From positions 186,001 to 250,000 of the forward strand of contig NZ_JACHZB010000011.1 in assembly GCF_014193255.1 (NCBI RefSeq): a DNA stretch of 64,000 nt, in the 5' to 3' direction. The translations under genes were made by a program, and so were the position numbers. Of this stretch, positions 28,267-42,258 are shown in pieces. The notes beneath the pieces were generated by a model that was given only the letters and a program-made list of their open reading frames with translations, had not been told where the DNA came from and did not search any database. Position 1 is the first letter of the stretch. Each line of letters begins with the position of its first letter. This DNA comes from Rhizobium sp. BK196. Its GTDB lineage: Bacteria > Pseudomonadota > Alphaproteobacteria > Rhizobiales > Rhizobiaceae.

Positions 28267-29331
28267 ATGACCCTCACGAGCGCCAAAGCGTCTCCCTGGT
28301 GGACACCACCCGTGCATGCCGATCGCCGCCCGTTCCTCATCGGACGCAACGCGATCCAGGCGGCGCTGCGCGGCTACTTTGCGCGCGAGGATTTCATCGA
28401 GGTTGATACGGCCACACTGCAGGTCTCTCCGGGCAACGAGGCTCACCTGCATGCCTTTGCCACCCAGGCGCTGACGACGGACGGACAGGCCGCGCCCTTC
28501 TATCTGCACACATCGCCGGAATTTGCGTGCAAAAAGCTTTTGGCCGCCGGTGAACAACGCATTGCCTGCTTTGCGCATGTCTATCGCAACCGCGAGCGCG
28601 GGCCGCTGCACCATCCTGAGTTCACGATGCTCGAATGGTATCGGGCGGGCGAAAGCTATGAGAGCCTGATGATGGATTGCGTGCGCATGCTGGCGCTCGC
28701 TGCCGAGACGGTTAAGACCGAAATGCTCGTCTATCGCGGCGCTGAGTGCGATCCCTTCGCCGGGCCGGAGCGTATCAGCGTTGCAGAGGCGTTCGATCGC
28801 CATGCCGGCATCAATCTTCTGGCTTCGGTTTCCGCTGACGGCTCGACGGATGGCGCGCATCTCGCCGCCGAGATGCGGCGGGTCGGCATGCGCGTTGCCG
28901 ATGACGATCATTGGGCTGATCTCTTCAGTCGGGTGCTGGTGGAAAAGGTCGAGCCGCATCTCGGCTTCGGCCGTGTCACCATTCTCGACGAATATCCTGT
29001 TTCTGAAGCGGCTCTCGCGCGGCCTTCGGCGCGCGATCCGCGGGTGGCGGAGCGCTTCGAGCTCTATGCCTGCGGGGTCGAGCTTGCCAACGGCTTTGGT
29101 GAACTGACCAATGCCGCAGAGCAGCGGCGGCGTTTTGAGATCGAGATGACCGAGAAAATGCGGGTCTATGGTGAGACCTATCCGCTCGACGAAGATTTTC
29201 TGGCGGCGCTGACGATCATGCCGGAAGCGAGCGGCATCGCGCTCGGCTTCGATCGGCTTGTGATGCTGGCGACGGGAGCGTCGCGGATCGATCAAGTGCT
29301 CTGGGCGCCTGTTGCGGAGTATGGCCGATGA
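28267..29331 (+). CDS. epmA: EF-P beta-lysine ligase EpmA
   Basis: A 354-aa class II lysyl-tRNA-synthetase-like enzyme without the anticodon-binding domain. It activates (R)-beta-lysine and attaches it to Lys34 of EF-P. Motif 2 is seen in FAHVYRNRERGPLHHPEFTMLEWYRAG and motif 3 in GIALGFDRLVMLATGA. The N-terminus (RPFLIGRNAIQAALRGYFA) starts directly with the catalytic core. The stop overlaps the epmB start by 4 bp (ATGA), giving coupled translation. It is divergent from efp. Confidence 0.95.
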   Translation: MTLTSAKASPWWTPPVHADRRPFLIGRNAIQAALRGYFAREDFIEVDTATLQVSPGNEAHLHAFATQALTTDGQAAPFYLHTSPEFACKKLLAAGEQRIACFAHVYRNRERGPLHHPEFTMLEWYRAGESYESLMMDCVRMLALAAETVKTEMLVYRGAECDPFAGPERISVAEAFDRHAGINLLASVSADGSTDGAHLAAEMRRVGMRVADDDHWADLFSRVLVEKVEPHLGFGRVTILDEYPVSEAALARPSARDPRVAERFELYACGVELANGFGELTNAAEQRRRFEIEMTEKMRVYGETYPLDEDFLAALTIMPEASGIALGFDRLVMLATGASRIDQVLWAPVAEYGR

Positions 29332-30380
29332 ATGTCATGCGTCCGATCAAAAGTGTCGACGATCTCGTCAGGACAGGCCTGATCGAGGAGGCTGAGCGAC
29401 TGGCGCTCGATGAGGTTGCTGCACGCTATGCCGTTGCGATGACGCCCGCCATGGCAAGGTTGATCGATCATGCCGATCCAGCCGACCCGATTGCCCGGCA
29501 GTTCGTGCCCGACGCGGCGGAACTGGTGACCACGCCGGAGGAGCGGGCCGATCCCATCGGCGATCATGCGCATAGTCCGGTGGAAGGTATCGTGCATCGC
29601 TATCCGGATCGCGTGTTGCTGAAAGCTGTGCATGTCTGCCCGGTCTATTGCCGCTTCTGCTTCCGGCGCGAGATGGTGGGACCGCAGGGGCTCGGCACTC
29701 TCGAGCCGGCCGCGCTGGCTGCAGCCTTCGACTATATTCGCGGCCACAGCGAGATCTGGGAGGTGATCCTGACCGGTGGCGATCCGCTGGTGCTTTCACC
29801 ACGTCGTCTCGGCGACATTCTAAGCGAGCTTGCGGCAATCCAGCATGTGAAAATTGTGCGATTCCACACACGGGTGCCGGTTGTCGACCCGCAGAAGATC
29901 GATGCGGAACTGATCGCGGCACTGAAGGCGAGCGGCAAGACAGTTTATGTCGCGCTCCACGCCAATCATCCTCGTGAGCTGACGGCGGAAGCGCGCGCCG
30001 CCTGTGCCCGCCTGGTGGATGCCGGCGTCGTCATGGTCAGCCAGTCGGTGCTTCTGAAAGGTGTCAACGATGATCCCGATGTTCTGGCGGGACTGATGCG
30101 AGCCTTCGTCGAGGCACGCGTGAAGCCCTATTATCTCCACCATCCGGATCTTGCGCCCGGCACCAGTCATTTCCGGCTGTCGATAGAGGAGGGGCAGAAG
30201 ATCGTCTCCTCGCTTCGCGGCCGTATCTCCGGCCTTTGCCAGCCCACCTATATCCTCGATATTCCGGGCGGCTACGGCAAGGCCGTGATCGGCGAAACCG
30301 CCGCGCAAGCGACCGGCGAAGGTTGTTATTCGATTTCGGATTATCGTGGCAACGAGCATTCCTATCCGCCCGCAGATTAG
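29328..30380 (+). CDS. epmB: EF-P lysine 2,3-aminomutase EpmB
   Basis: A 350-aa radical SAM enzyme that makes (R)-beta-lysine for EpmA. The 4Fe-4S cluster ligands are Cys104, Cys108 and Cys111 in CPVYCRFC. The PLP-binding lysine lies in the C-terminal DIPGGYGKAVIG. SAM-binding GGDP follows the motif in EVILTGGDPLVLS. It is translationally coupled to epmA. No gene for the hydroxylase EpmC is next to it; EpmC is not essential for EF-P function in known systems and is often absent outside enterobacteria. Confidence 0.95.
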   Translation: MNVMRPIKSVDDLVRTGLIEEAERLALDEVAARYAVAMTPAMARLIDHADPADPIARQFVPDAAELVTTPEERADPIGDHAHSPVEGIVHRYPDRVLLKAVHVCPVYCRFCFRREMVGPQGLGTLEPAALAAAFDYIRGHSEIWEVILTGGDPLVLSPRRLGDILSELAAIQHVKIVRFHTRVPVVDPQKIDAELIAALKASGKTVYVALHANHPRELTAEARAACARLVDAGVVMVSQSVLLKGVNDDPDVLAGLMRAFVEARVKPYYLHHPDLAPGTSHFRLSIEEGQKIVSSLRGRISGLCQPTYILDIPGGYGKAVIGETAAQATGEGCYSISDYRGNEHSYPPAD

Positions 30381-30643: not shown

Positions 30644-30895
30644 ATGAACAAGACAATCCGCGACCTCGTAGCCAAGTTCGGTAAGCTTCCTGTATCCGTT
30701 GATCAGGTTGCCGACGATGCGGATCTCTACGCCGCGGGTCTGACGTCCTTCGCTTCCGTGCAACTCATGCTCGGCATCGAAGAGGCCTTCGACATCGAGT
30801 TTCCCGATAATCTCCTGAACCGCAAGTCCTTCGCGAGCATCTCGGCGATCGCCAACACGGTCGATCTCATCCGGGATGGCCGAAAGGTCGCCTGA
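30644..30895 (+). CDS. Acyl carrier protein of the aminoacyl:carrier-protein type
   Basis: An 83-aa carrier protein with the four-helix pattern and a phosphopantetheine site at Ser35 in AAGLTSFASVQL. The usual DSL is TSF here, as in several rhizobial carrier proteins charged by aaRS-like ligases. It is distinct from fatty-acid AcpP. ATG 30644, behind CTGGAGTG, is preferred over a GTG at 30635. Its stop codon overlaps the next ATG by 1 bp. It is probably charged by the ligase two genes downstream and presents the aminoacyl group to the flavoprotein and DUF1839 protein. The 263-bp region upstream is AT-rich and holds the promoter. Confidence 0.88.
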   Translation: MNKTIRDLVAKFGKLPVSVDQVADDADLYAAGLTSFASVQLMLGIEEAFDIEFPDNLLNRKSFASISAIANTVDLIRDGRKVA

Positions 30896-32076
30896 TGAAT
30901 TTCCCGGTCAAGATCACGGAAGACAGCTTGGTCGCAAGGGCTGCCCGCGTCTCCGAAATTGCGGCGAGACATGCGGATGCCGTCGATTTCGAAGGCCGGT
31001 TCCCGCAGGAAGCCGTCAACGCGATGAAGGCCGAGCGGCTGCTCGGTATCCAGATCCCCCGCCATCTTGGTGGCGAGGCTGCTTCCACGACCGATATTGC
31101 CGAATTGTGCTCGATGCTCGGCCAGGCCTGCGCGGCAAGCGCGATGGTCTTTGCCATGCACCATATCAAGCTTTCGAGTCTCGTCGAACACGGCGTCGAC
31201 AGCGAATGGCATAGCGCCTTCATGCGCCGTATCGCTGCCGAACAGCTTCTGATCGCTTCCGCCACCACCGAAGGTGGGATCGGGGGCAATCTGCGCAACA
31301 GCATCTGCGCGATCGAAATCGATGGCGATATCTGCAGGCTGCAAAAGGATGCGACCGTCATTTCCTATGGCTCGCATGCCGATGCCATTCTCATCACTTC
31401 GCGCAGCCATCCGCAGGCCGCCTCCTCCGATCAGGTCCTGACCGCCTTCCTGAAAGATCAGTACACGCTCGAAAAGACGCATGCCTGGAACACGCTCGGC
31501 ATGCGCGGGACCTGCTCCGACGGCTTCCTCTTCAAGGGTGAAGCACCGGCCGCACAGATCCTGCCGAAGCCATTCGCTGAGATTGCAGCGCAGTCGATGC
31601 TTGCCTCTTCGCACCTGCTCTGGAGCGGCGTGTGGTATGGCATCGCGGTTGACGCCGTTTCCCGCGCACAGGCTTTCGTGCGCGCCGCTGCCCGCAAGTC
31701 TCCCGATGCTACCCCGCCCGGCGCCCTTCGCCTCGCTGAGGTTTCCAACCTCCTGCAGATGGTGAAGTCGAATGTCGTTGCCGGCCTCAAGGCCTATGAG
31801 GACGCCAAGGCTGACGGCGACAAGCTTTCCTCAATGGGCTTTGCCGTGGCGATGAACAATGTGAAGATCGCCTCGTCTGAGACGATCTTGGAAATCGTCA
31901 ATCATGCCATGCTGATCTGCGGCATCATGGGCTACAAGAACGGTACCCCCTTCAGCCTCGGACGCCATCTGCGCGATGCCCATTCCGCACAGCTCATGAT
32001 CTCGAACGACCGCATCCTCGGCAATACGTCGAGCATGCTCCTTGTCCATAAGCAGGACACTAGCCTACTGGGGTAA
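30895..32076 (+). CDS. Acyl-CoA dehydrogenase-like flavoprotein
   Basis: A 393-aa member of the acyl-CoA dehydrogenase superfamily. The N-terminal helical domain reads [20 protein letters not shown], the middle FAD region [16 protein letters not shown], and the C-terminal region [23 protein letters not shown]. Where typical members have the base in YEGTSE, this protein has ISND (369-372), so normal acyl-CoA chemistry is uncertain. Related dehydrogenases oxidise aminoacyl groups on carrier proteins (for example prolyl-S-carrier oxidases). Sitting between a carrier protein and its ligase, a carrier-bound aminoacyl substrate is inferred. It overlaps the carrier gene by 1 bp. Confidence 0.85.
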
Positions 32077-32080
32077 AGCC

Positions 32081-32989
32081 ATGGATATGCAGACTTCGTT
32101 TCTGGACCGGCTCTTCGAGTCCGGCCTGCTGATCGATACCGGCGTTGACGGTCTTTACGGACGCAGCGGCCAGTTCGAAGACGTCATCGCCGCTTTTGAA
32201 CGGCTGATCGACAGGTTCGGTGGCGCCGATGGCGCCGAAGCGATGCGCTTTCCGCCCGGCATGAACCGTGCGCTCTTCGAAAAGAGCGGCTATATGAAGA
32301 GCTTCCCGCAGCTCGCCGGCACGGTGCACAGCTTCTGCGGCAGCGAGCTCGACCATATGAGCCTGCTGCAATGCATGGAAGTCGGCGAGGACTGGACCAA
32401 GGATCAGAAGGCAACCGATATCGTTCTGACGCCGGCTGCCTGCTACCCGCTTTATCCGACAGTTGCCAAACGCGGCAACCTGCCGGCGAAGGGCGGCCTC
32501 TTCGATCTCCAGTCCTACTGCTTCCGTCATGAGCCTTCCAAGGATCCGGCGCGCCAGCAGCTGTTCCGCATGCGCGAATATGTCTGCATGGGCACCGAGC
32601 AGCATGTGACCGATTTCCGCCAGAGCTGGATGGACCGCGGCGTCGAAATGATGACGCAGGTCGGCCTCGACGTGACGATCGACGTTGCCAACGACCCGTT
32701 CTTCGGCCGCGCCGGCAAGATGATGGTCAACAACCAGCGCGATCAGAATCTGAAATTCGAGCTCTTGATCCCGATCACCTCGTCGGCGAACCCAACGGCC
32801 TGCATGAGCTTCAACTACCATCAGGACTCCTTTGGCGTGAAGTGGGGCCTGAATCTTGAAGACGGCAGTGTGGCGCACACGGCCTGCGTCGGTTTCGGCC
32901 TGGAACGCATCGCGCTCGCGCTCTTCCACACCCACGGCCTTGACATCAAGGAATGGCCGGCAAGCGTACGGAAAGTCCTGTGGGGCTGA
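32081..32989 (+). CDS. Amino acid:[carrier protein] ligase (class II aaRS-like)
   Basis: A 302-aa homologue of the catalytic core of atypical seryl-tRNA synthetases that lacks a tRNA-binding domain. Motif 2 is [21 protein letters not shown] and motif 3 [14 protein letters not shown]. Cys121, Cys269 and a Glu in motif 2 (166 or 173) fit the zinc site of the family. Members from Bradyrhizobium and Agrobacterium activate small amino acids such as glycine or alanine and load them on the phosphopantetheine of a carrier protein. The carrier gene two positions upstream is the expected partner. ATG 32081 lies 4 bp after the previous stop codon. Confidence 0.93.
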
Positions 32990-32997
32990 GCGACTCG

Positions 32998-33960
32998 ATG
33001 ACATCGGTTTTTGCGGGTATCGATCCTGATGTCTACAAGCCGCATGCGCTGCATGCCGGCGAGCGCATGTGGCCGGAGACCAATTGCTATATCGATCTCT
33101 GGATTGAGGTGCTCTCGACTTTCGGCGTCGCACCCGAAGCGATGCTCGGCTTTACGCTGACGCAGGATTTCGAGGGCGACCAGTTCACCTTCTTCAAGGT
33201 GCCGCTGGAAGATCTCGAAGCGCTCTATGGCATCCGCACTACCGAGCTTGCGATCTACGACCGCGTCGAGCGGCATGTCGAGGTGCAGATCGCCCGCGGG
33301 CGGCTCTGCCTGATCGAGATGGATTCCTTCTTTATGCCGGATACGCGCGGCACCGCCTACCGGCAGGAGCACGGCAAGACCACAGTGGCGATCAACCGGC
33401 TGGACTTTGCCGGCAAGCGCGTCGACTATTTCCACAATGCCGGTTATTTCCGCATCGAGGGCGAGGATTTCGACGGGCTGTTTCAATCCCATCTGACGGA
33501 TGAAGATGCGCCGTTCCTGCCCTATACGGAATTCGCCAAGTTCCCGGAACGCCCGGTCGGTGAGGCGCATCTGCGCGAAGTTTCCCGCCGGCTCCTTGGC
33601 TTTCATTTCGCCCGCAGGCCGGGTGCCAATCCGATCCTCGCCTTTGCGGAAGTCTTCCCGCTGCAGGTCGAAGGGGTGGCCGACCGGCCGTTTGGCTTCT
33701 TCCACAAGTATGCCTTCAACACGCTCAGACAGGTGGGTGCGAATTTCGAACTCGCGGCCGATCATCTGGCCTGGCTTTCAGCCGACGAGTTCGGCGTCGC
33801 GATCGAGGAAGCACGCCGGATCTCGGAGGTGGCGAAGTCTGTTCAGTTCCAGCTGGCGCGTGCTGTCACCCGCCGCAAGTTCGAGCCGTTGAAAGCGGCT
33901 CTTGATCCGGCTGCCGATGCATGGGATTCGATGATGGCATCGCTCGCGGAGCGAGCCTGA
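32998..33960 (+). CDS. DUF1839 family protein, possible aminoacyltransferase
   Basis: A 320-aa DUF1839 protein. Conserved blocks are ETNCYIDLWIEVL (Cys30), DFEGDQFTFFK, IEMDSFFMPDT, YRQEHGKTTVAI (His125) and YFHNAGYF (His146, Asn147). The Cys-then-His-then-Asn order and the NCY-helix context recall papain-like and BtrH-type acyltransferases, which move acyl groups from carrier proteins to amines. That function is an inference. DUF1839 genes are commonly found with aaRS-like carrier-protein ligases. The frame is open upstream into the ligase gene; ATG 32998 is 8 bp after its stop codon. Confidence 0.82.
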   Translation: MTSVFAGIDPDVYKPHALHAGERMWPETNCYIDLWIEVLSTFGVAPEAMLGFTLTQDFEGDQFTFFKVPLEDLEALYGIRTTELAIYDRVERHVEVQIARGRLCLIEMDSFFMPDTRGTAYRQEHGKTTVAINRLDFAGKRVDYFHNAGYFRIEGEDFDGLFQSHLTDEDAPFLPYTEFAKFPERPVGEAHLREVSRRLLGFHFARRPGANPILAFAEVFPLQVEGVADRPFGFFHKYAFNTLRQVGANFELAADHLAWLSADEFGVAIEEARRISEVAKSVQFQLARAVTRRKFEPLKAALDPAADAWDSMMASLAERA

Positions 33961-33975
33961 AGCCGGAGATCAGAC

Positions 33976-36450
33976 ATGCGGGGGCGGTTGGCAAGCATAG
34001 GGGCTGAGGAAAGCCTGCTTTCCGAAGGCTGGAATCTGGTTCTGACCGAGCCTGACGCCTGCGCGACACCCCACGATATCCATCTTTCGGCGCAGTTCAT
34101 TCCCGCACCTGTTCCGGGCACTGTCGCAGCGGCGCTCGAAAAAGCAGGGCTGTTCGACCGGGAAAATCCACAGCCGCTGAACACCAAGGATGCCTGGTAT
34201 CTGACCCGCCTCTTCGATGCGGAGCCAGGCGAGGCGCTCCTACGTTTTCAAGGGCTGGCGACGATCTGCCATGTTTTTCTGAACGGCGTTGAGATCCTTT
34301 TCTCCGAGAGCATGTTCACCGCTCATGAGATACCGGTGACGCTCGCGGGCGGCGATGAACTGGCGCTCTGCTTTCGGGCCCTCGCTCCCCGCCTTGGCGA
34401 ACCCGGACCGCGAGCCCGCTGGCGCCCGCAGATGATCACGCCGCAAGGGCTGAAGAATATCCGCACGACGCTGCTTGGACATATGCCCGGCTGGTGCCCT
34501 GAAATCCATGCCGTCGGGCCGTGGCGGCCGATCTCGCTCGTGCGCCGGGGCGTTGCCTCGGTCGACAATGTCACGGTGCGTGCTGTTCTGGAGGAAAGCG
34601 GGGCGGGACGGCTCAGCGTTTCTCTTCATGCCGATGGCGAAGAGCCGGTTATGCTTCTGCGCTGCGCCGGTATCGAGCAGGGTTTCGAGAAGATCGGCGA
34701 CAGGCATTATTCGGTAATCCTCAAGCTGCCCGAGGTCGAGGCCTGGTGGCCACATACGCATGGCGCGTCGCATCTCTACGATGTGACGCTGGTTCTTGAC
34801 GGCGAGGAACATTCGCTCGGCAAGACAGGATTTCGGCGTGTCGAGGTTGACCACGGCGCTGACGGCAGTGATTTCACGCTTTGCGTCAATGGCGAACGGG
34901 TCTTCTGCCGTGGCGCGGTCTGGACGACAGCCGACATAGCGCGGCTGCCGGGGGAGCGGGCTGACTACGAGCCGTTCCTGCGGCTTGCTGCCGAGGCCGG
35001 CATGAACATGATCCGCATCGGGGGAACCATGGCGTATGAAACGCCGGAATTCTTCGCGCTCTGCGACGAATTTGGGCTGATGGTCTGGCAGGACTTCATG
35101 TTCGCCAATTTCGACTATCCGAAGAACGACAAGACCTTTATCGGCCATGTGCATGCCGAGGTGGAGGAATTCCTGCACGGCGTACAGCTTTCGCCGTCGC
35201 TCGCCGTGCTCTGCGGCGGCAGCGAAATCCACCAGCAGGCGGCGATGTTCGGCCTGCCCTCGGATTTCTGGAGCGGGCCGATCACCGACGAGATCATCCC
35301 GGCGATCTGCCAGCGCATGCGGCCTGACGTCCCTTACGTGCCGAATTCGCCCTACGGCGGGGCGATGCCCTTTTCGCCCAACGCTGGCGTCACGCATTAT
35401 TACGGCGTCGGTGCCTATATGCGGCCGCTCGAGGATGCGCGCCGCGCCGAGGTACGCTTTGCGGCGGAAAGCCTCGCCTTCGCACATGTACCGCAGCAAA
35501 GGACCTTACAGCGGCATCTCGACGTGCCTTCAGTTCACAGTCCGCTCTGGAAAGAGCGGGTGCCGCGCGACCGCGGTGCTTCCTGGGATTTCGAGGATGT
35601 CAGGGACTTTTATCTCGGACTTCTCTATGACGTCGACCCCGCCAAGCTCCGCCGTGAAGACCCCGAACGTTATCTCGACTTGTCGCGCGCTGTTACGGGT
35701 GAAGTGCTGGAGGAAACCTTTGCCGAATGGCGGCGCAAGGGGTCGACCTGCAATGGGGCGCTCGTCTGGACCTTGCAGGATCTGTTGCCAGGTCCCGGCT
35801 GGGGCGTGATCGATTCCGCCGGCGAGCCCAAACCTGTCTGGCATGCGATGCGCCGCGCCTTCCGTCCTGTGCAGGCAGTTTTTACGGACGAGGGGACGAA
35901 TGGCCTCCATGTCCATGTCATCAACGAGACCGACAAAGTGGTGGCTCTCGAACTCGATGTCGCCTGCCTCCGCGAGGGGCGCCAGCAGGTCGCGAGCGGC
36001 AGCAAGGCCTTCAATCTCGACCCGAGGAGCGTGGAGCGTATCGCTTGCACCGATCTCTTCGGCGGCTTCTTTGATGCGGCCTATGCCTTCCGTTTCGGTG
36101 CGCCATCGCATGACGTCAGCGTTGCCTGGCTGCGGTCGACGATGGACGGCGCGCTGTTGGCGCAGGCTTTCCATTTCCCGAGCGGCCGAGCCAGAGCCTT
36201 CCACGACGCGACGATCGAGGCGTCCTTCATCCGTGAGGGCGATGGTTGGTTCATCACGCTTGCGGCCGACAGGCTGGCTCAATCCGTGCATATCGATGTC
36301 GAAGGCTACCGGGCTGAAGAGGACTGGTTCCATCTGGCACCAGGTCCTGCCAAGCGAGTGAAGCTCATCGCTGCTGCGGGCATTGATGGCGATGCGTTGC
36401 CGGCGGGCGAAATCAGGAGCGTCGGCGCCTTGCGCCGTTTCGCGCTTTAA
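33976..36450 (+). CDS. Glycoside hydrolase family 2 protein, beta-mannosidase-like
   Basis: An 824-aa protein with the GH2 layout: an N-terminal jelly-roll sugar-binding domain (PVPGTVAAALEKAGLF, WYLTRLFDAEPGEALLRFQGLA), an immunoglobulin-like domain, then the TIM barrel (FCRGAVWTTADIARLPG, FALCDEFGLMVWQDFMFANFDYP). The acid/base Glu417 sits in GGSE, where GH2 enzymes normally have GNE. The likely nucleophile is Glu498 in FAAESLAF. No signal peptide is seen, so it is cytosolic. In this operon it may trim or transglycosylate a glycan intermediate. It starts 15 bp after the DUF1839 gene. Confidence 0.88.
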   Translation: MRGRLASIGAEESLLSEGWNLVLTEPDACATPHDIHLSAQFIPAPVPGTVAAALEKAGLFDRENPQPLNTKDAWYLTRLFDAEPGEALLRFQGLATICHVFLNGVEILFSESMFTAHEIPVTLAGGDELALCFRALAPRLGEPGPRARWRPQMITPQGLKNIRTTLLGHMPGWCPEIHAVGPWRPISLVRRGVASVDNVTVRAVLEESGAGRLSVSLHADGEEPVMLLRCAGIEQGFEKIGDRHYSVILKLPEVEAWWPHTHGASHLYDVTLVLDGEEHSLGKTGFRRVEVDHGADGSDFTLCVNGERVFCRGAVWTTADIARLPGERADYEPFLRLAAEAGMNMIRIGGTMAYETPEFFALCDEFGLMVWQDFMFANFDYPKNDKTFIGHVHAEVEEFLHGVQLSPSLAVLCGGSEIHQQAAMFGLPSDFWSGPITDEIIPAICQRMRPDVPYVPNSPYGGAMPFSPNAGVTHYYGVGAYMRPLEDARRAEVRFAAESLAFAHVPQQRTLQRHLDVPSVHSPLWKERVPRDRGASWDFEDVRDFYLGLLYDVDPAKLRREDPERYLDLSRAVTGEVLEETFAEWRRKGSTCNGALVWTLQDLLPGPGWGVIDSAGEPKPVWHAMRRAFRPVQAVFTDEGTNGLHVHVINETDKVVALELDVACLREGRQQVASGSKAFNLDPRSVERIACTDLFGGFFDAAYAFRFGAPSHDVSVAWLRSTMDGALLAQAFHFPSGRARAFHDATIEASFIREGDGWFITLAADRLAQSVHIDVEGYRAEEDWFHLAPGPAKRVKLIAAAGIDGDALPAGEIRSVGALRRFAL

Positions 36451-36466
36451 GGACCAGGGAGCGGTC

Positions 36467-37675
36467 ATGACGATCAGGGTGCAGGCGGAAGAGGCTTTGC
36501 GGGGCGTTTATCGAAGCGTGCGCGGGCATCTGCTGCAGCGGCTGATTGTCAAATCACGGCTTGCCTTCAATCCGCGCCGACCGGTCGAGATTGTCGGTTA
36601 TCTGTCGATGGCAGCAGGTGTGGGCGAATCGGCGCGGCTTTGCGCTGCCGCGCTTTCGCAGGCAGGCCGTGAGATCATGCTTGCGGATGTCAGCACACAT
36701 CCGGACGAAGGCAAGCTGGTCGAATGGGCGTCCGAGCAAATGTCCGGCGGCCAGCCGGGAAGCCGCATATGGCACCTCAATCCGCCCATGCTGCCGCGCG
36801 CGATCCTGAAGAAAGGTCTCGGCAATTTCACCCGTGCCTTCAATATCGGTTACTGGGCATGGGAGCTGGAAGTGGTGCCGGCGGAATGGCGCAATGCCAT
36901 GCACTATATGAACGCCGTCTTCGTTCCCTCGGAATTCGCCAGGAGGGCAATCGCACCACATACGACTGCACCTGTCATTGTCGTGCCGCACCCGGTGACC
37001 GAGCGGTCGGCGGCTGACGGTATCCGGCAGAAATTCGGAATTGCCGAGGATGCTTTCCTCGTATCGTTCGTCTTCAGCGCCGGTTCCTCGATCAACCGCA
37101 AGAACCCGCAGGCGGCGATCGAGGCCTTCAGGCTCTTCAGCGCCGAATGCCCCCATGCCTTCCTGCTGATGAAGGCGAGCGGCAATCCGGTCCGGGACGA
37201 GGCACTTCGCGCGCTCATGCAGTCCGTGGAAGGCGACCGCAACATCAGGATCGTTACCGATAATCTGGCGAGTTCGGAGATAAACGGCATCATTCGCGAT
37301 TCCAATGCCTATCTTTCGCTGCATCGTTCGGAGGGTTTCGGCCTGACGGTGGCTGAAGCCATCATGCATCGCACGCCCGTCGTTTCGACAGAATGGTCGG
37401 GCACGGCTGACTTCTGCGATCCCGACAATACCTGGCTGGTCGTGCCGTCGCTTATTCCCGTCGTCGATAGCCATCCGGAATTCGCTGATCTCACGAATGC
37501 CGTCTGGGCCGATCCTTCACCCGCGACCGCGGCGGCGCATTTGAAGAGTATTTATTCCGATCCCGAGGCTGCGAAGCAGAAAGCAGAGGCGGCGCGGGCC
37601 TATCTCGTGCGTCATCTCGCCGAGCACAGCTACGACAGGGCGCTTTCACGGCTTTCTGCGATGCAGGCGAGCTAA
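36467..37675 (+). CDS. GT4-type glycosyltransferase
   Basis: A 402-aa GT-B glycosyltransferase. The N-terminal half has EIVGYLSMAAGVGESARLCA and NIGYWAWELEVVPAEWR. The C-terminal nucleotide-sugar domain shows FSAGSSINRKNPQAAIEAF and the EX7E motif HRSEGFGLTVAEAIMHRTPVV. A GGGAG ribosome site precedes ATG 36467, 16 bp after the GH2 stop codon; the open frame before it overlaps GH2. It is likely a cytosolic or membrane-associated enzyme that adds a sugar to a lipid-linked intermediate. Donor and acceptor are unknown. Confidence 0.9.
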   Translation: MTIRVQAEEALRGVYRSVRGHLLQRLIVKSRLAFNPRRPVEIVGYLSMAAGVGESARLCAAALSQAGREIMLADVSTHPDEGKLVEWASEQMSGGQPGSRIWHLNPPMLPRAILKKGLGNFTRAFNIGYWAWELEVVPAEWRNAMHYMNAVFVPSEFARRAIAPHTTAPVIVVPHPVTERSAADGIRQKFGIAEDAFLVSFVFSAGSSINRKNPQAAIEAFRLFSAECPHAFLLMKASGNPVRDEALRALMQSVEGDRNIRIVTDNLASSEINGIIRDSNAYLSLHRSEGFGLTVAEAIMHRTPVVSTEWSGTADFCDPDNTWLVVPSLIPVVDSHPEFADLTNAVWADPSPATAAAHLKSIYSDPEAAKQKAEAARAYLVRHLAEHSYDRALSRLSAMQAS

Positions 37676-37764
37676 GCTGAGCGCTTTACTCCCCTTTATT
37701 TTAACATTTCCAATTTAGAGATGACTTGTTTTCGGCCGCGCTGCGGCTTCTGGCGGATGGACGG

Positions 37765-40700
37765 ATGTCGAAGGGCATTATTGCAAATTCGGTGATGAAT
37801 GCGGCGGCGGGTATGCTGCTTCTGGTGACGGGGTTCGCGTCCTCGATCATAACTGCACGCCTGCTCGGCCCCGAGGCCAACGGTATCGTCGCCTTTTCAC
37901 TCTGGCTCGTCGTCACAGGGGCCTCGATTGCTGAGCTCGGCTCCAGCATCACGCTTCTGAAGACACTGCCGCAGCTTTCGGCGCAGGGCTACAGCTTCGA
38001 GCAACGCAGAGGATTTGCCTCGATCCTCGTCACCTTCATGGTCTGCTCCACGTTGGTGCTACTGGGGCTTTATGCTCTGTTCTTCCTGACATCGGAGGAA
38101 ATGCATTGGGCCGACACCGCACCGTCGGTGGCGCTTGTGACAGGCATCCTCTTCTTCGTCCAGGCGATCGGCTCTTTCGTTAAATTTTACCTCATTGGCG
38201 AAAAGCGGCTCGGCACGTTCTTCCAGCTGACGCTGATCGTCTCGGTTTTCCAGCTTGTGGGCGTCGCGGTCGGTGCCGTCTTTTACGGTGTGCAGGGCGT
38301 GCTTGTCGGCTATGCGCTCGGCCAGCTCGTGCTTTTCGTCGCTACCTTGCCGATCCTCTTTGCTCGTCGTGACCGCTGCGGTGTCTCGCTCAAATATCTG
38401 GCGTCGTCGTCGGTCATCCTGTCGATGCAATTCATCATCGATTCGATCTTCCTAAACCGTATCGAACTGCTTTTCCTGCAGCAGTTCTGGTCGGTGGAAA
38501 TGGTCGGCTTCTACGCTGCCGGCCTGTCGATCGCCAATATCGCGCTGCAGCTTCCGATCCAGATGAGCGGTAGCCTGCTCCCCTATTATTCGGAACGACG
38601 GCACACCAGCGCCGACTCGAAGTTCCCGGTCGACGCCTTTGCCGCTGTCATCCGCAGCATGGCCTATATCGTGCTGCCTATGAGTCTGGGGCTTGCCGCG
38701 ATCTCTACCGAACTTGTGCATGTCGTCTTCGGCGAAGCCTTCGACCGAAGCGGTGGAGTGGTCGCTCTGCTTGCGCTTGTCGCGCCTGCCTACACTCTCA
38801 TGCAGGTTCTCAGCCTGTACCTGCTCTCAATCGACAAAGCCAATGTACGGTTGAAAATCAGTGTGATAGGTGGCCTTCTTATGGTAGTAGGTTGTTTACT
38901 CATCGTACCTAGTCTGGCCGCCGAGGGTGCCGCGCTTGTGCGCATAGCCGTATTCGTTGCGATGTCGGTAATGATGGTCAGACAAACGGGATTCGGAACG
39001 CAGCTTTCGGGTCTTTATCTCAGCCTTACGAAGATTACTCTCGCGGCGGTATTTTGCGCCTGCGGTGCGATTACTGCACTTGAGCTCGTCCAGGGGCTTG
39101 TCGGCCTTGTCGCGGCGATCATCGCTGGTACATTTGCGTATTTTGCTGCGTTGAAAGTCCTCCGTGCCGTTCCTGCCGAAGATATCCAGGTGCTGCGCTC
39201 GATCCTCGACAAGATGCCCGCATTGCTGCAGGGACCGGCAAGACGCGCGGTCAGTTTCATCACTGCGCCGACCCCAGAAGGAGAAGAGAAGAAGCCTGAT
39301 AACGAAGAGTTCTCGCGTGAACCGGCGGAAGGCGCCGGCCGCTCCGCTGCTCTTCCCGTTGTCTTTGATGGCACGATTGGTCTTTTCATGCCGGAAAAGG
39401 CTGACGTTGCAAAACGCTCGGCTGCTGTCCTGTTCGTCAGCCCCTGGGGTTTCGAGGAAATGTGCACGCGGAAATTCTATCGCGTCGCGGCGGAGCATTT
39501 CTCCGACGTTGGCGTGCCGAGCCTGCGTTTCGACTACACGGGTACGGGTGATGCGCTCGATTTTGGCGATCAGACACCCAGTCTGGAAATCTGGAAGAAT
39601 TCCATCCGCGCAGCCGCTGCAAAATTGAAGACGCTCAGCGGTTGCTCGCAGATTATTCTTGTCGGCCAGGGTCTCGGCGGCACGCTTGCTCATCTCACCG
39701 GCCACACGATCGAGGGCGTCGACAGTATCGTGCTGCTTGCGCCTGTCCTCAGCGGCAGGGGGCATCTGCGTGAAATCAATATGTGGTCGCGGATCATCCA
39801 TGCCGACCTCGGTCTCGGCAAGGAGCATGCACCAAGCGCCCAGGTTCAGATCGCCGGCCTGACCCTGCCAGACGCGATTGCTGCGGAAATCGGCAAGCTC
39901 AATATCAGTTCACCGCAGGAGCTTTCGGCGCCGAATTACCTGATCCTCGAACGCCCGGTTCGGGTTGATGATATGGCCTTCGCTGACTCCCTGAAGGCAC
40001 TTGGCGGTAACGTCGAGCAGCGGGTTTTCGAAGGCTATGACGAGCTGGTCACGAACCCGCTCTTTGCCAAGACGCCGATGGCAGTCATCAAGCTGCTTGC
40101 CGAATGGCTTGTCGAGACAACCGCGCCTGCTGGGTCCGTCGGTCACTCTTCGCAGGAGGTCGAAAACCGGCCGCTCGCAGGTGACGGTTTTGAGGAGATT
40201 CCGGTTCGTTTCGGCGCGTTCCAGCATCTGATCGGCGTCGTCAGCCGGCCTCAAGGCGAGATCAAGGGTAACGCCGTGCTCTTCATGTCGACGGCCTATG
40301 ACCGGCATGCCGGCTGGGGCCGGACGACTGTCGATATGGCGCGCGAGCTCGCTCGCCAGGGCGTCGTTTCGCTGCGCTTCGATTCCGCCAACGTCGGCGA
40401 CAGCGTCCCCCGCCCGGATGCGCCGGAACAGGTTCTCTATTCCGCGACACAGACGGAAGACGCGCTCGCCTCGCTGGATCTTTTGGAAAGCTTCGTTGCC
40501 GGACCGATCATGGTCGCGGGTCGCTGCAGCGGCGGTTATGTAGCCCTGCGCGCCGGCATCGAGGATGAGCGGCTGAAGGCGATCGTTTCCATCAATCCCT
40601 TCGTCTACTACTGGGATCCCGAGATGCCGGTGCGACGCGAACATGTCGTCTCAGTTCCGCGCAGCGTCGACGATTACGGTCAGCGGATGATGCGGCTCGA

Positions 40701-41076
40701 CACGGTCAAGCGGCTGTTGCGCGGCGAGGTCGATGTCTTTGCGGCCCTGCAGAACATCTTCATCGCGATCGGTCGCCGGCTTTCGCCGCGCATCGCGCCG
40801 CTCGTGGAACTCATTCCGGGCCGCCGTCATATCGCACGCCAGGTGCGTCAGTCTTTTGCGGCACTCGGCAAACGCAAGGTGCCGCTGACGCTGATCTACA
40901 GCGAAGGCGATGTCGGTCTCGACCACATGTATTTCCACTTCGGCCCGCGCGGCCACAAGTTTGCCAAGCACCCGAATGTGCGGTTGGTGATGCTGCAGGA
41001 TGCCGATCACAATCTGACGCCGCCGGAATCGCGCAAGCTGGTGCTGGAGGAGATCGTCCGGCTGGCGAAAGCCTGA
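37765..41076 (+). CDS. Fusion of Wzx-type polysaccharide flippase with two alpha/beta-hydrolase domains
   Basis: A protein of about 1103 aa. Residues 1 to about 475 form a polysaccharide-export flippase with around 12-14 hydrophobic segments (AAAGMLLLVTGFASSIITARLLGPEANG and similar). After a charged linker, two alpha/beta-hydrolase domains follow, resembling the hydrolases linked to exosortase A systems. In domain 1 the nucleophile elbow reads GQGLG, with Gly636 in the Ser position. In domain 2 it is GRCSG, with Cys921. Domain 1 is thus probably inactive, and domain 2 would use Cys. A TTG start at 37726 is the alternative. It would flip a lipid-linked glycan and process it. Confidence 0.87.
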   Translation: MSKGIIANSVMNAAAGMLLLVTGFASSIITARLLGPEANGIVAFSLWLVVTGASIAELGSSITLLKTLPQLSAQGYSFEQRRGFASILVTFMVCSTLVLLGLYALFFLTSEEMHWADTAPSVALVTGILFFVQAIGSFVKFYLIGEKRLGTFFQLTLIVSVFQLVGVAVGAVFYGVQGVLVGYALGQLVLFVATLPILFARRDRCGVSLKYLASSSVILSMQFIIDSIFLNRIELLFLQQFWSVEMVGFYAAGLSIANIALQLPIQMSGSLLPYYSERRHTSADSKFPVDAFAAVIRSMAYIVLPMSLGLAAISTELVHVVFGEAFDRSGGVVALLALVAPAYTLMQVLSLYLLSIDKANVRLKISVIGGLLMVVGCLLIVPSLAAEGAALVRIAVFVAMSVMMVRQTGFGTQLSGLYLSLTKITLAAVFCACGAITALELVQGLVGLVAAIIAGTFAYFAALKVLRAVPAEDIQVLRSILDKMPALLQGPARRAVSFITAPTPEGEEKKPDNEEFSREPAEGAGRSAALPVVFDGTIGLFMPEKADVAKRSAAVLFVSPWGFEEMCTRKFYRVAAEHFSDVGVPSLRFDYTGTGDALDFGDQTPSLEIWKNSIRAAAAKLKTLSGCSQIILVGQGLGGTLAHLTGHTIEGVDSIVLLAPVLSGRGHLREINMWSRIIHADLGLGKEHAPSAQVQIAGLTLPDAIAAEIGKLNISSPQELSAPNYLILERPVRVDDMAFADSLKALGGNVEQRVFEGYDELVTNPLFAKTPMAVIKLLAEWLVETTAPAGSVGHSSQEVENRPLAGDGFEEIPVRFGAFQHLIGVVSRPQGEIKGNAVLFMSTAYDRHAGWGRTTVDMARELARQGVVSLRFDSANVGDSVPRPDAPEQVLYSATQTEDALASLDLLESFVAGPIMVAGRCSGGYVALRAGIEDERLKAIVSINPFVYYWDPEMPVRREHVVSVPRSVDDYGQRMMRLDTVKRLLRGEVDVFAALQNIFIAIGRRLSPRIAPLVELIPGRRHIARQVRQSFAALGKRKVPLTLIYSEGDVGLDHMYFHFGPRGHKFAKHPNVRLVMLQDADHNLTPPESRKLVLEEIVRLAKA

Positions 41077-41091
41077 GAATTTCCTGATCTT

Positions 41092-42258
41092 TTAAGTGGC
41101 AATGCCGATTGAGCGGTAGAGGTCCATATACCGTTCCGCAACGGCATCCCACGAATAGGCATGGGCGGCTTGCATGAGGCTCTTCCGTAAGGACGAACCC
41201 TCGACGGTGACGTTGCGATAGGCTTTCTCGACCGCATCCGCCGCCAGTTCCGGCTTCGTGAAGTCGGCGAGGATGATTTCCTCATGCCGCCGGGCGAGCG
41301 CGCGATAGGCCTCGTTGGTGTTGAGGACCGGTTGCAGGCCAGCGCTCATCGCTTCCAGCGCAACGATTCCGAAACCTTCATATTCCGATGCCGAAGCCAT
41401 GAGTGATGCCTTGGCAATGATGCCGCGGATCGCGTGATCGTCCGGCGAAACGGTCAGGGTTACGGATGCTTGCAACGATCTTGAGGCAATCTCCCGCCTG
41501 ACGTCAGCGGCATCAAGATCGGATTCGGCGCCGATAATGTCGAGATGCCAGTCGGCATGACGTTTTAGGAGTGCGGCCATCGCGTCCAGCAGAAGATCGA
41601 GCCGTTTGTTTACGGAGAAGCGGCCGATCGTGACGATGCGCCGCTCGGGCGTGCGCGAGGCGGCATCGGCGAATTTGCCGATATCGGCACCATTCTCGAT
41701 GGTCATGCCATCGGGGACGATCTGGACGAACTGGCTGAGATCCGACGCGCTGCAGCAGACGACGCGTCGATAGGCGATCGCCGAGAGCCGCGTCAGCGTT
41801 CTGAACCAGACTTTCTTGATGACAAGGAATTTCTTCGTGTGAAAGAAACCGCCGTGGGTCGTGACAACCATGGGCTTGCGGTGCAGGAATCTGCCCCAGG
41901 CGAGGGCATCGAAGAAGAAGTCGATTGCATGGACATGGATGAGATCGGCATCGCCGATATGGCGGAAGACCTGTGGTGCTATCGGATAGCGGCTGCTGCC
42001 GGACCAGGGGATGCGGACAACCTCGATGCCGTCGATGGTTTCGCGCGCCGGAAGCTTGTCGTCAGGAGCGGTAAAGAGCGAATCGAGCGTGACGACACGG
42101 ACGCGGTATCCGCGTTTCAGGGTCTGGCGGGCGAGATTGGCGACCACATCCTCAAGGCCGCCGCGGTTGGGCAGAAACTGCCGTACGACGTGCACGATGA
42201 GGGGCGCAGCTTTCGGCTGCGGGCTGTTCTCGACGGTCTCTACCACGGAGAGGGACAT
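41092..42258 (-). CDS. GT4-type glycosyltransferase
   Basis: A 388-aa GT-B enzyme. The N-terminal domain shows IVHVVRQFLPNRGGLEDVVANLARQ, DADLIHVHAIDFFFDALAW and VTTHGGFFHTKKF. The C-terminal domain has IVTIGRFSVNKRLDLLLDAM and the EX7E motif SEYEGFGIVALEAMSAG. It is convergent with the flippase-hydrolase gene, with 15 bp between the stop codons. It probably serves the same surface glycan as the neighbouring cluster, although it has its own promoter. The donor sugar is unknown. Confidence 0.9.
   Translation of the reverse strand: MSLSVVETVENSPQPKAAPLIVHVVRQFLPNRGGLEDVVANLARQTLKRGYRVRVVTLDSLFTAPDDKLPARETIDGIEVVRIPWSGSSRYPIAPQVFRHIGDADLIHVHAIDFFFDALAWGRFLHRKPMVVTTHGGFFHTKKFLVIKKVWFRTLTRLSAIAYRRVVCCSASDLSQFVQIVPDGMTIENGADIGKFADAASRTPERRIVTIGRFSVNKRLDLLLDAMAALLKRHADWHLDIIGAESDLDAADVRREIASRSLQASVTLTVSPDDHAIRGIIAKASLMASASEYEGFGIVALEAMSAGLQPVLNTNEAYRALARRHEEIILADFTKPELAADAVEKAYRNVTVEGSSLRKSLMQAAHAYSWDAVAERYMDLYRSIGIAT

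Follow-up and report, generated by a model that had tools for sequence, protein, structure and literature searches.

The stretch analysed here (the window, 64,000 nucleotides in its full length) comes from Rhizobium sp. BK196, contig NZ_JACHZB010000011.1, in a genome of 6.0 Mb and 16 contigs. A preliminary description of the sequence had noted in it seven genes in one direction with short gaps, in which a carrier protein and its aminoacylating ligase stand beside glycan genes. We confirmed this arrangement at positions 30644-41076. The seven open reading frames (ORFs), with starts taken from the sequence, were all open and on the forward strand, and the intergenic spacing ranged from -1 to 16 bp for six genes and reached 89 bp before the flippase-hydrolase gene. 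Profile searches upheld the family names given earlier (PP-binding, Acyl-CoA_dh N and C, DUF1839, GH2, GT4, Polysacc_synt_3, hydrolases and NF005479). The last gene was indeed a flippase-hydrolase fusion, but its hydrolase part consisted of two domains instead of one, which we named HYD2 and HYD1. Among the matches listed, the closest relatives of the DUF1839 protein came from Rhizobium. The features are given below, with protein lengths in amino acids (aa).

30644..30895, forward strand: carrier protein of the Atu2571 type, 83 aa, phosphopantetheine site at Ser35; NF005480
30895..32076, forward strand: acyl-CoA dehydrogenase (ACAD)-like flavoprotein, 393 aa, 1-bp overlap with the carrier gene; PF02771 and PF00441
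32081..32989, forward strand: aminoacyl-tRNA synthetase (aaRS)-like amino acid:[carrier protein] ligase, 302 aa, 4-bp gap; NF005479
32998..33960, forward strand: DUF1839 protein, a papain-fold, CcbD-resembling putative acyl-transfer enzyme, 320 aa, 8-bp gap; PF08893
33976..36450, forward strand: GH2 beta-mannosidase-like protein, 824 aa, 15-bp gap, both catalytic Glu present; Glyco_hydro_2_N2
36467..37675, forward strand: lineage-specific GT4 glycosyltransferase, 16-bp gap; PF00534 and PF20706
37765..41076, forward strand: flippase-hydrolase fusion, whole gene, 89-bp gap; Polysacc_synt_3 and two alpha/beta-hydrolase domains
37765..39339, forward strand: flippase part of the fusion, Wzx type, with an approximate boundary; PF13440
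39340..41076, forward strand: HYD2-HYD1 alpha/beta-hydrolase pair, HYD2 without a nucleophile, HYD1 with Cys-Asp-His (Cys codon at 40525)
41092..42258, reverse strand: convergent GT4 glycosyltransferase; PF00534, 81 bits

The ligase matched the amino acid--[acyl-carrier-protein] ligase model NF005479 with 523.2 bits (cut-off 357) and the solved Bll0957-type ligase structures with 336 and 320 bits; its score with Pfam tRNA-synt_2b, 26.6 bits, fell just under the 29.3 cut-off. The Cys-Glu-Cys triplet of atypical seryl-tRNA synthetases (SerRS), which we take to be zinc ligands, was kept (Cys120 in 151/152 sequences, Glu165 and Cys268 in 152/152 each; numbering from Asp2). The carrier gene stands next but one to the ligase gene. 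Its product reached 123.5 bits with NF005480 (cut-off 72) and 128 bits with 4h2w_C and Atu2571 (2jq4), and Ser35 was present in 132 of 132 sequences.

We compared 133 loci, made up of 80 Rhizobium-group loci, all close relatives (the best 80 of at least 548 matches), and 53 more varied loci. Four genomes of another class (L225-L229) were kept outside this count. The order carrier-flavoprotein-ligase-DUF1839, on a single strand and within 4.5 kb, was found in all 131 loci that had the four genes, and it held in 53/53 of the more varied loci. Two loci were left out of the gene-order count, L041 (no carrier found; locus close to the start of its contig) and L010 (carrier and flavoprotein not found). 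The latter, a 6.4 kb contig of R. leguminosarum Vaf-46, matched the second half of the ligase only, showed neither flavoprotein nor carrier upstream and is either rearranged or misassembled. A GH2 gene followed the four-gene set within 1 kb downstream in 131 of the 133 loci and lay 2.6 kb on in L192. The five core genes of the 53 more varied loci had a median identity of 49.5-67% to those of the window. This gene arrangement is no chance effect.

The remaining genes behaved differently. The window GT4 was found at 32 of the 80 Rhizobium-group loci and 2 of the 53 others, the flippase at 51/80 and 6/53 (some of the six matches being weak) and HYD1 at 52/80 and 35/53. The convergent GT4, in the preliminary description a probable member of the same pathway, travels with the fused flippase: it scored above 300 bits in 47 of the 48 fused-flippase loci among the 80 and in both of those among the 53. 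As a set of seven, the genes were not conserved: the GT4 and the flippase vary among the 133 loci. What co-occurrence in relatives did reveal was a conserved five-gene core, with a lineage-dependent GT4 and flippase and a hydrolase pair that is sometimes unlinked. The conserved unit is thus the five-gene core plus the co-occurring, at times unlinked hydrolase pair; GT4 and flippase were mostly added in the Rhizobium lineage.

The link to the hydrolase pair was also evident on a genome-wide scale. Our surveys covered 297 genomes of the order, a class sample of 289 and a phylum sample of 299, which overlap, and the HYD pair was counted genome-wide at an E value of 1e-10 or better. DUF1839 was present in 52 of the 297 order genomes and a ligase over the cut-off in 70, including all 52. 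The HYD2-HYD1 pair occurred in 53, namely the 52 DUF1839 genomes (best E value 5.2e-58 or better) and G514, which has no DUF1839 and carries two separate, weak HYD pieces (E value 7e-20). Since the best HYD match was apparently unlinked to DUF1839 in at least 11 of the 52 genomes (8 on another contig, in draft assemblies, and 3 more than 200 kb away), the pairing is not explained by neighbourhood alone. Within family f1, 7 sampled genomes had both DUF1839 and HYD, and 8 listed others had neither. DUF1839 was found in 4/289 genomes of the class sample and 15/299 of the phylum sample. The six genomes with DUF1839 that lie outside the order all had a ligase over the cut-off and the HYD pair (E value 1.1e-38 or better), so that the pair accompanied DUF1839 in 58 of 58 genomes tested (52 from the order and 6 from outside). 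Fisher values calculated for the co-occurrence take no account of relatedness among the genomes and serve as a rough guide. This strict co-occurrence reveals a component that is not evident from the locus in many genomes. Two further observations concern the DUF1839 gene. In one genome (G475:C1:2515620-2516545) it is split across two overlapping frames, which reflects either a frameshift or an error in sequencing. A second, divergent copy is carried by two other-class genomes (G740 and G792; loci L226 and L229) and lies beside ManC, Wzc and HYD in L229 and beside similar-sized genes and HYD in L226.

HYD2 and HYD1 resembled TIGR03101 (69.7 bits, cut-off 202.75) and TIGR03100 (85.2 bits, cut-off 168.45), and the flippase half matched PF13440 (Polysacc_synt_3) with 42.8 bits (cut-off 23). 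Fusion of HYD to the Wzx flippase was seen in 48 of the 51 loci with both parts among the 80 and in 2 of 6 among the 53. The HYD1 triad was conserved in the aligned sequences (Cys 51/51, Asp 50/51, His 51/51). In the HYD model, with a predicted local distance difference test (pLDDT) score of 85.8, the HYD1 Cys was placed between strand 390-395 and helix 397-408, a strand-helix spot at which alpha/beta-hydrolases carry their nucleophile. The HYD2 elbow residue was Gly in 11 and Arg in 10 of 21 sequences, with no nucleophile, in a 21-row alignment; this column is mostly gaps in the large hydrolase alignment. The structures nearest to the model were esterases and lipases, and a myristoyl-ACP thioesterase appeared at rank 32. 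Membership of the pair in an exosortase system was considered and rejected: both scores lay below the cut-offs, and an exosortase (PF09721) was found in just 2 of the 52 DUF1839 genomes and not in G000. Given this rarity, the HYD pair mostly operates outside the exosortase system.

The DUF1839 protein matched PF08893 with 447.8 bits (cut-off 22.5), and its model, predicted from a 40-sequence alignment, had a pLDDT of 94.9. Foldseek returned 19 chains with an E value below 0.001 for this model, all of them AziU2-U3 complex (8.7e-8), CtaG (1.0e-6) or CcbD (6.8e-6) entries. With VIA-align, CcbD was the best match (Z 19.1, root-mean-square deviation 3.6, 278/319 residues aligned), followed by CtaG (Z 17.4, 273/319) and the AziU2-U3 complex chain (Z 17.3, 279/319); the next, unrelated rows had Z values of about 7. 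The three matched enzymes depend on carrier proteins, and the similarity extends over almost the entire DUF1839 model. DUF1839 has been described as papain-like in fold, its triad being Cys-(Thr/Ser)-His, and its role was guessed to be the processing of glycans at the cell wall (PMC10318531). In our alignment, the Cys at position 29 (30 from the ATG at 32998), which opens the first long helix, and His145 were invariant (134/134 each), and Thr127 and Thr128 were each Thr in 133 sequences and Ser in one; we picked Thr127/128 and His145 in the window protein to match the published triad. CcbD transfers carrier-bound proline to its own Cys, where it is attacked by the amino group of a thiooctose, and docks its carrier through Arg312 to Arg324 (PMC12945683). 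Helix 265-291 of the DUF1839 model bears the invariant Lys279 and Arg287 and the nearly invariant Arg291 (numbering from Thr2), and Glu46 and Glu52 are invariant in the carrier protein, suggesting by analogy that the basic helix and these two residues may form the same dock as in CcbD. The CcbD-like fold suggests a candidate for the transfer enzyme and a type of acceptor. We found no literature that connects DUF1839 with CcbD or with the HYD pair in a search that covered subscription papers only to a small extent.

The ligase occurred in three settings. Setting A is the DUF1839 core. In setting B, the 18 ligase-only loci (L145-L162), flavoprotein and ligase lie on one strand and a carrier match was found at 14 of the 18, divergent in all 14; genome-wide, these genomes had no HYD pair except for the two weak, separate pieces in G514. 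The ligases of settings A and B fell into separate clades with supports of 0.67 (weak) and 0.89, and so did the flavoproteins (0.92 and 1.0). At three examples of setting B, a cupin, a class IV aminotransferase or Cys/Met-type pyridoxal phosphate-dependent enzymes were seen nearby. Setting C (L163, L164 and L218-L220) accounts for five of the seven ligase matches below the cut-off, the other two (G314 and G317) being weak and partial. Here a longer relative of the ligase lies between a DltB-like MBOAT protein (174.6 bits, cut-off 375) and a carrier in 5/5 loci, with a conserved gene upstream and the same order throughout (e.g. L220:4346-8725); no window-type flavoprotein was found at these five loci. 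By analogy, setting C supports the view that such ligases may feed surface acylation. GGDEF or EAL proteins were noted near the ligase in L171, L172, L162 and L220, across all three settings, possibly by chance, as these genes are common.

The flavoprotein is homologous to acyl-CoA dehydrogenases over its full length. At the positions that we take to hold the catalytic Glu of medium- and short-chain acyl-CoA dehydrogenases (MCAD/SCAD) and of isovaleryl-CoA dehydrogenase (IVD), it has other residues: at the former, Ile369 in 149 of 151 sequences and Val in two; at the latter (239), Ser, Ala, Thr or Cys in 150 of 151, with one gapped. His89, Glu126, His240, Trp243 and Trp247 were invariant save for one gapped sequence, and Asn371 and Arg373 were present in all. 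Because both usual catalytic Glu are absent, the enzyme may more likely be of an oxygenase or N-oxidase type than a classical alpha,beta-dehydrogenase. In profile searches dehydrogenases ranked first, and DnmZ, the nitrososynthase 3mxl and the entries 3m9v and 4kcf also matched; the last two are listed as flavin adenine dinucleotide-dependent oxidoreductases and are presumably KijD3. The flavoprotein was kept beside the ligase in 18/18 ligase-only loci, making action on the aminoacyl carrier more probable than action on a sugar. The amino acids used by this ligase family are Ala, Gly and Ser according to a review (PMC9437257); if Gly is the substrate, alpha,beta-dehydrogenation is impossible.

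The GH2 protein matched beta-mannosidase 5n6u with 184 bits. Glu417 and Glu498 were present in 131/131 sequences, at sites placed by alignment with 5n6u, which itself lacks Glu at the first. The glycan genes around related loci were read from chosen examples, without a count. Near other core loci we saw a WcaJ-type initiating transferase, a Wzy-type protein, glycosyltransferases and Wzx, and near core or HYD loci in relatives also Wzz, Wzc and ManC. Away from the core, HYD adjoined a Wzx flippase (L230), a Wzz-type protein (L231), or ManC and Wzc (L229). In Agrobacterium, a cluster including Atu2577 to Atu2592 reportedly makes an uncharacterised glycan tied to pyocyanin tolerance (PMC9790009); that this glycan might be the product of the DUF1839 pathway is just a guess from the gene numbers. 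Directly upstream of the window cluster lie genes that we take to be EpmA- and EpmB-like (28267-30380). A functional tie to them was rejected as local synteny, with matches at 78/80 Rhizobium-group loci and 4/53 others.

Altogether, we consider it probable that the genes of this locus amidate an amino sugar by way of the carrier protein, within a glycan precursor that a flippase exports. Of this scheme, the analysis establishes the gene content and order, the co-occurrence, the predicted fold and the invariant residues, whereas the substrate, the oxidation, the acceptor, the parts played by GH2 and HYD and the glycan concerned are inferred. By the known activity of its family, the ligase would adenylate a small amino acid and load it onto the phosphopantetheine of the carrier, where the flavoprotein would oxidise the aminoacyl group. 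The acyl group would then pass to the DUF1839 Cys and on to the amino (or hydroxyl) group of a sugar in the manner of CcbD, as the fold, the invariant residues and the context suggest. GH2 might trim or transfer mannose-like units, and the GT4 enzymes would complete the sugar unit before Wzx flips it. The HYD2-HYD1 protein, for which the co-occurrence demands a role, would work close to the flippase or directly at it; it is probably an acyltransferase or thioesterase that depends on its Cys and has this acyl group, or else the glycan, as its substrate. The proposal of the preliminary description that an amino acid decorates a surface glycan is thus supported in its glycan linkage, in the handover from carrier to sugar and in a possible oxidation beforehand, but it applies to the DUF1839 type only and has been in print since 2010, when a note in proof by Iyer et al. 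proposed that an amino acid is joined to a sugar of the cell surface through the amino group of that sugar (PMC2922099). That note names Atu2574, which we take as the DUF1839 protein, as the amide ligase and predicts a mono-oxygenation (PMC2922099, section 17), a prediction that the missing Glu bases of the flavoprotein sequence would fit. In the literature searched, we found nothing that settles the fate of the amino acid from aaRS-derived carrier ligases.

Several observations weigh against the amidation pathway. The published triad order of DUF1839, Cys-(Thr/Ser)-His (PMC10318531), differs from the Cys-His-Glu of CcbD, and a likeness between a predicted fold and CcbD is no proof of the same reaction. 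The GH2 protein has no obvious role in the proposed pathway and apparently no signal peptide, as judged by eye, and at one locus (L216 in G155) DUF1839 was present with no GH2 match in the 20 kb examined. The HYD pair was absent from the locus in 28 of the 80 and 18 of the 53 loci, and the glycosyltransferases and flippase beside the core differ by lineage. Ligase and carrier genes were also found in part apart from the glycan genes: 18 of the 70 ligase genomes had no DUF1839, 14 of these loci had a carrier, and no DUF1839, GH2 or HYD match was found at any of the 18 loci. Because these ligase-only forms make their own clade, the glycan link is limited to, and holds for, DUF1839-type ligases and not the whole ligase family.

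The absence of the window glycosyltransferases and flippase from most of the 53 distant loci would suit a different product, a small soluble sugar-amino acid conjugate of the mycothiol or lincosamide kind, which the five core genes would produce and the cell would export or retain for redox or signalling purposes, the polymer genes being neighbours with only their regulation in common. CcbD, the best fold match, builds a small molecule as well. However, the HYD pair and Wzx/Wzy/Wzc-type genes recur in the scanned examples, HYD is fused to the flippase in 48/51 Rhizobium-group loci with both parts, and the second DUF1839 of the two other-class genomes again lies beside HYD, in L229 with ManC and Wzc too, so we regard a soluble conjugate as rather unlikely. 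It is somewhat harder to believe that DUF1839 esterifies a sugar hydroxyl or a lipid, as a cytoplasmic counterpart of Dlt-type alanylation: the carrier did match DltC models, weakly and under the cut-offs, and the related ligases of setting C are accompanied by a DltB-like MBOAT and a carrier in 5/5 loci, but the closest solved structure, CcbD, has an amine acceptor (PMC12945683) and no MBOAT was found among the chosen core-locus neighbours scanned by Pfam.

For the flavoprotein, oxidation of the amino sugar in nitrososynthase fashion, in place of the aminoacyl group, would agree with the matches to 3m9v, 4kcf, DnmZ and 3mxl. Ordinary ACADs outscored the nitrososynthases, though, and the flavoprotein accompanies the ligase in all the ligase-only loci, where DUF1839 and GH2 matches are missing, which leaves this an improbable role. 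The original ligase paper tied these enzymes to nonribosomal peptide synthesis, and the locus could then be a stand-alone peptide pathway with glycan genes as accidental neighbours. None of 30 chosen neighbour proteins was a nonribosomal peptide synthetase (NRPS) in a Pfam scan, and the conserved GH2 and HYD co-occurrence point to sugars; we thus give this explanation hardly any credence.

If carrier-dependent amidation of a glycan precursor is correct, rhizobia and other proteobacteria possess a system devoted to decorating a surface glycan with an amino acid, using chemistry so far known from antibiotics. A wider reading, which we put forward tentatively and hold to be possible but doubtful, is that a former tRNA synthetase loads the carrier, a flavoenzyme without its catalytic bases oxidises the cargo, a CcbD-like enzyme forms a sugar amide in the cytoplasm, and the HYD2-HYD1 protein, with its Cys nucleophile and sometimes fused to the flippase, carries out another acyl transfer, by which decoration and export become coupled. 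We found no precedent in the literature searched for this wider route of glycan modification. Were it true, the ligase family would be a general loader working in at least three settings (DUF1839/glycan, ligase-flavoprotein-carrier alone and Dlt-like MBOAT).

The proposed pathway shares features with several known systems. In the lincosamide synthetase (CcbC, CcbZ-CP and CcbD), a papain-like enzyme likewise transfers an amino acid from a carrier protein to an amino sugar, and DUF1839 shares the CcbD fold across 278 residues. In contrast, the identity is 12% and the triad order is rearranged, an NRPS A domain does the loading there and an aaRS-like ligase here, and our system has an additional flavoprotein and probably a surface glycan as its product. 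The flavoprotein is similar in sequence across the whole chain to acyl-CoA dehydrogenases and to the nitrososynthases of the same fold, but it has Glu at neither known catalytic position in 151 sequences (one being gapped at one position). TIGR03100 and TIGR03101, the closest models to the HYD domains, describe exosortase A/PEP-CTERM-associated hydrolases 1 and 2, and hydrolases of exosortase systems also occur in a polysaccharide setting; the HYD domains differ in being fused, in scoring under both cut-offs and in rarely having an exosortase in the genome. As in D-alanylation by DltABCD, a ligase and a carrier would deliver an amino acid to a cell-surface polymer, whereas no MBOAT is found among the window cluster genes and the transfer would be cytoplasmic, through DUF1839; the Dlt-like module with an aaRS-like ligase in the place of DltA is the separate set of setting C. 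Another close system, together with the ligases of Mocibob et al., is the neighbourhood reported by Iyer et al. in 2010 for SerRS-derived class II ligases, which comprises a carrier, a ligase, a redox enzyme, the conserved ORF Atu2574 and a glycosidase. The main text of that note gives no fold for Atu2574, no HYD partner and no ligase-only or MBOAT settings. New here are the likeness of the DUF1839 fold to CcbD, the HYD pair as a partner, the lack of the flavoprotein catalytic bases and the three ligase settings.

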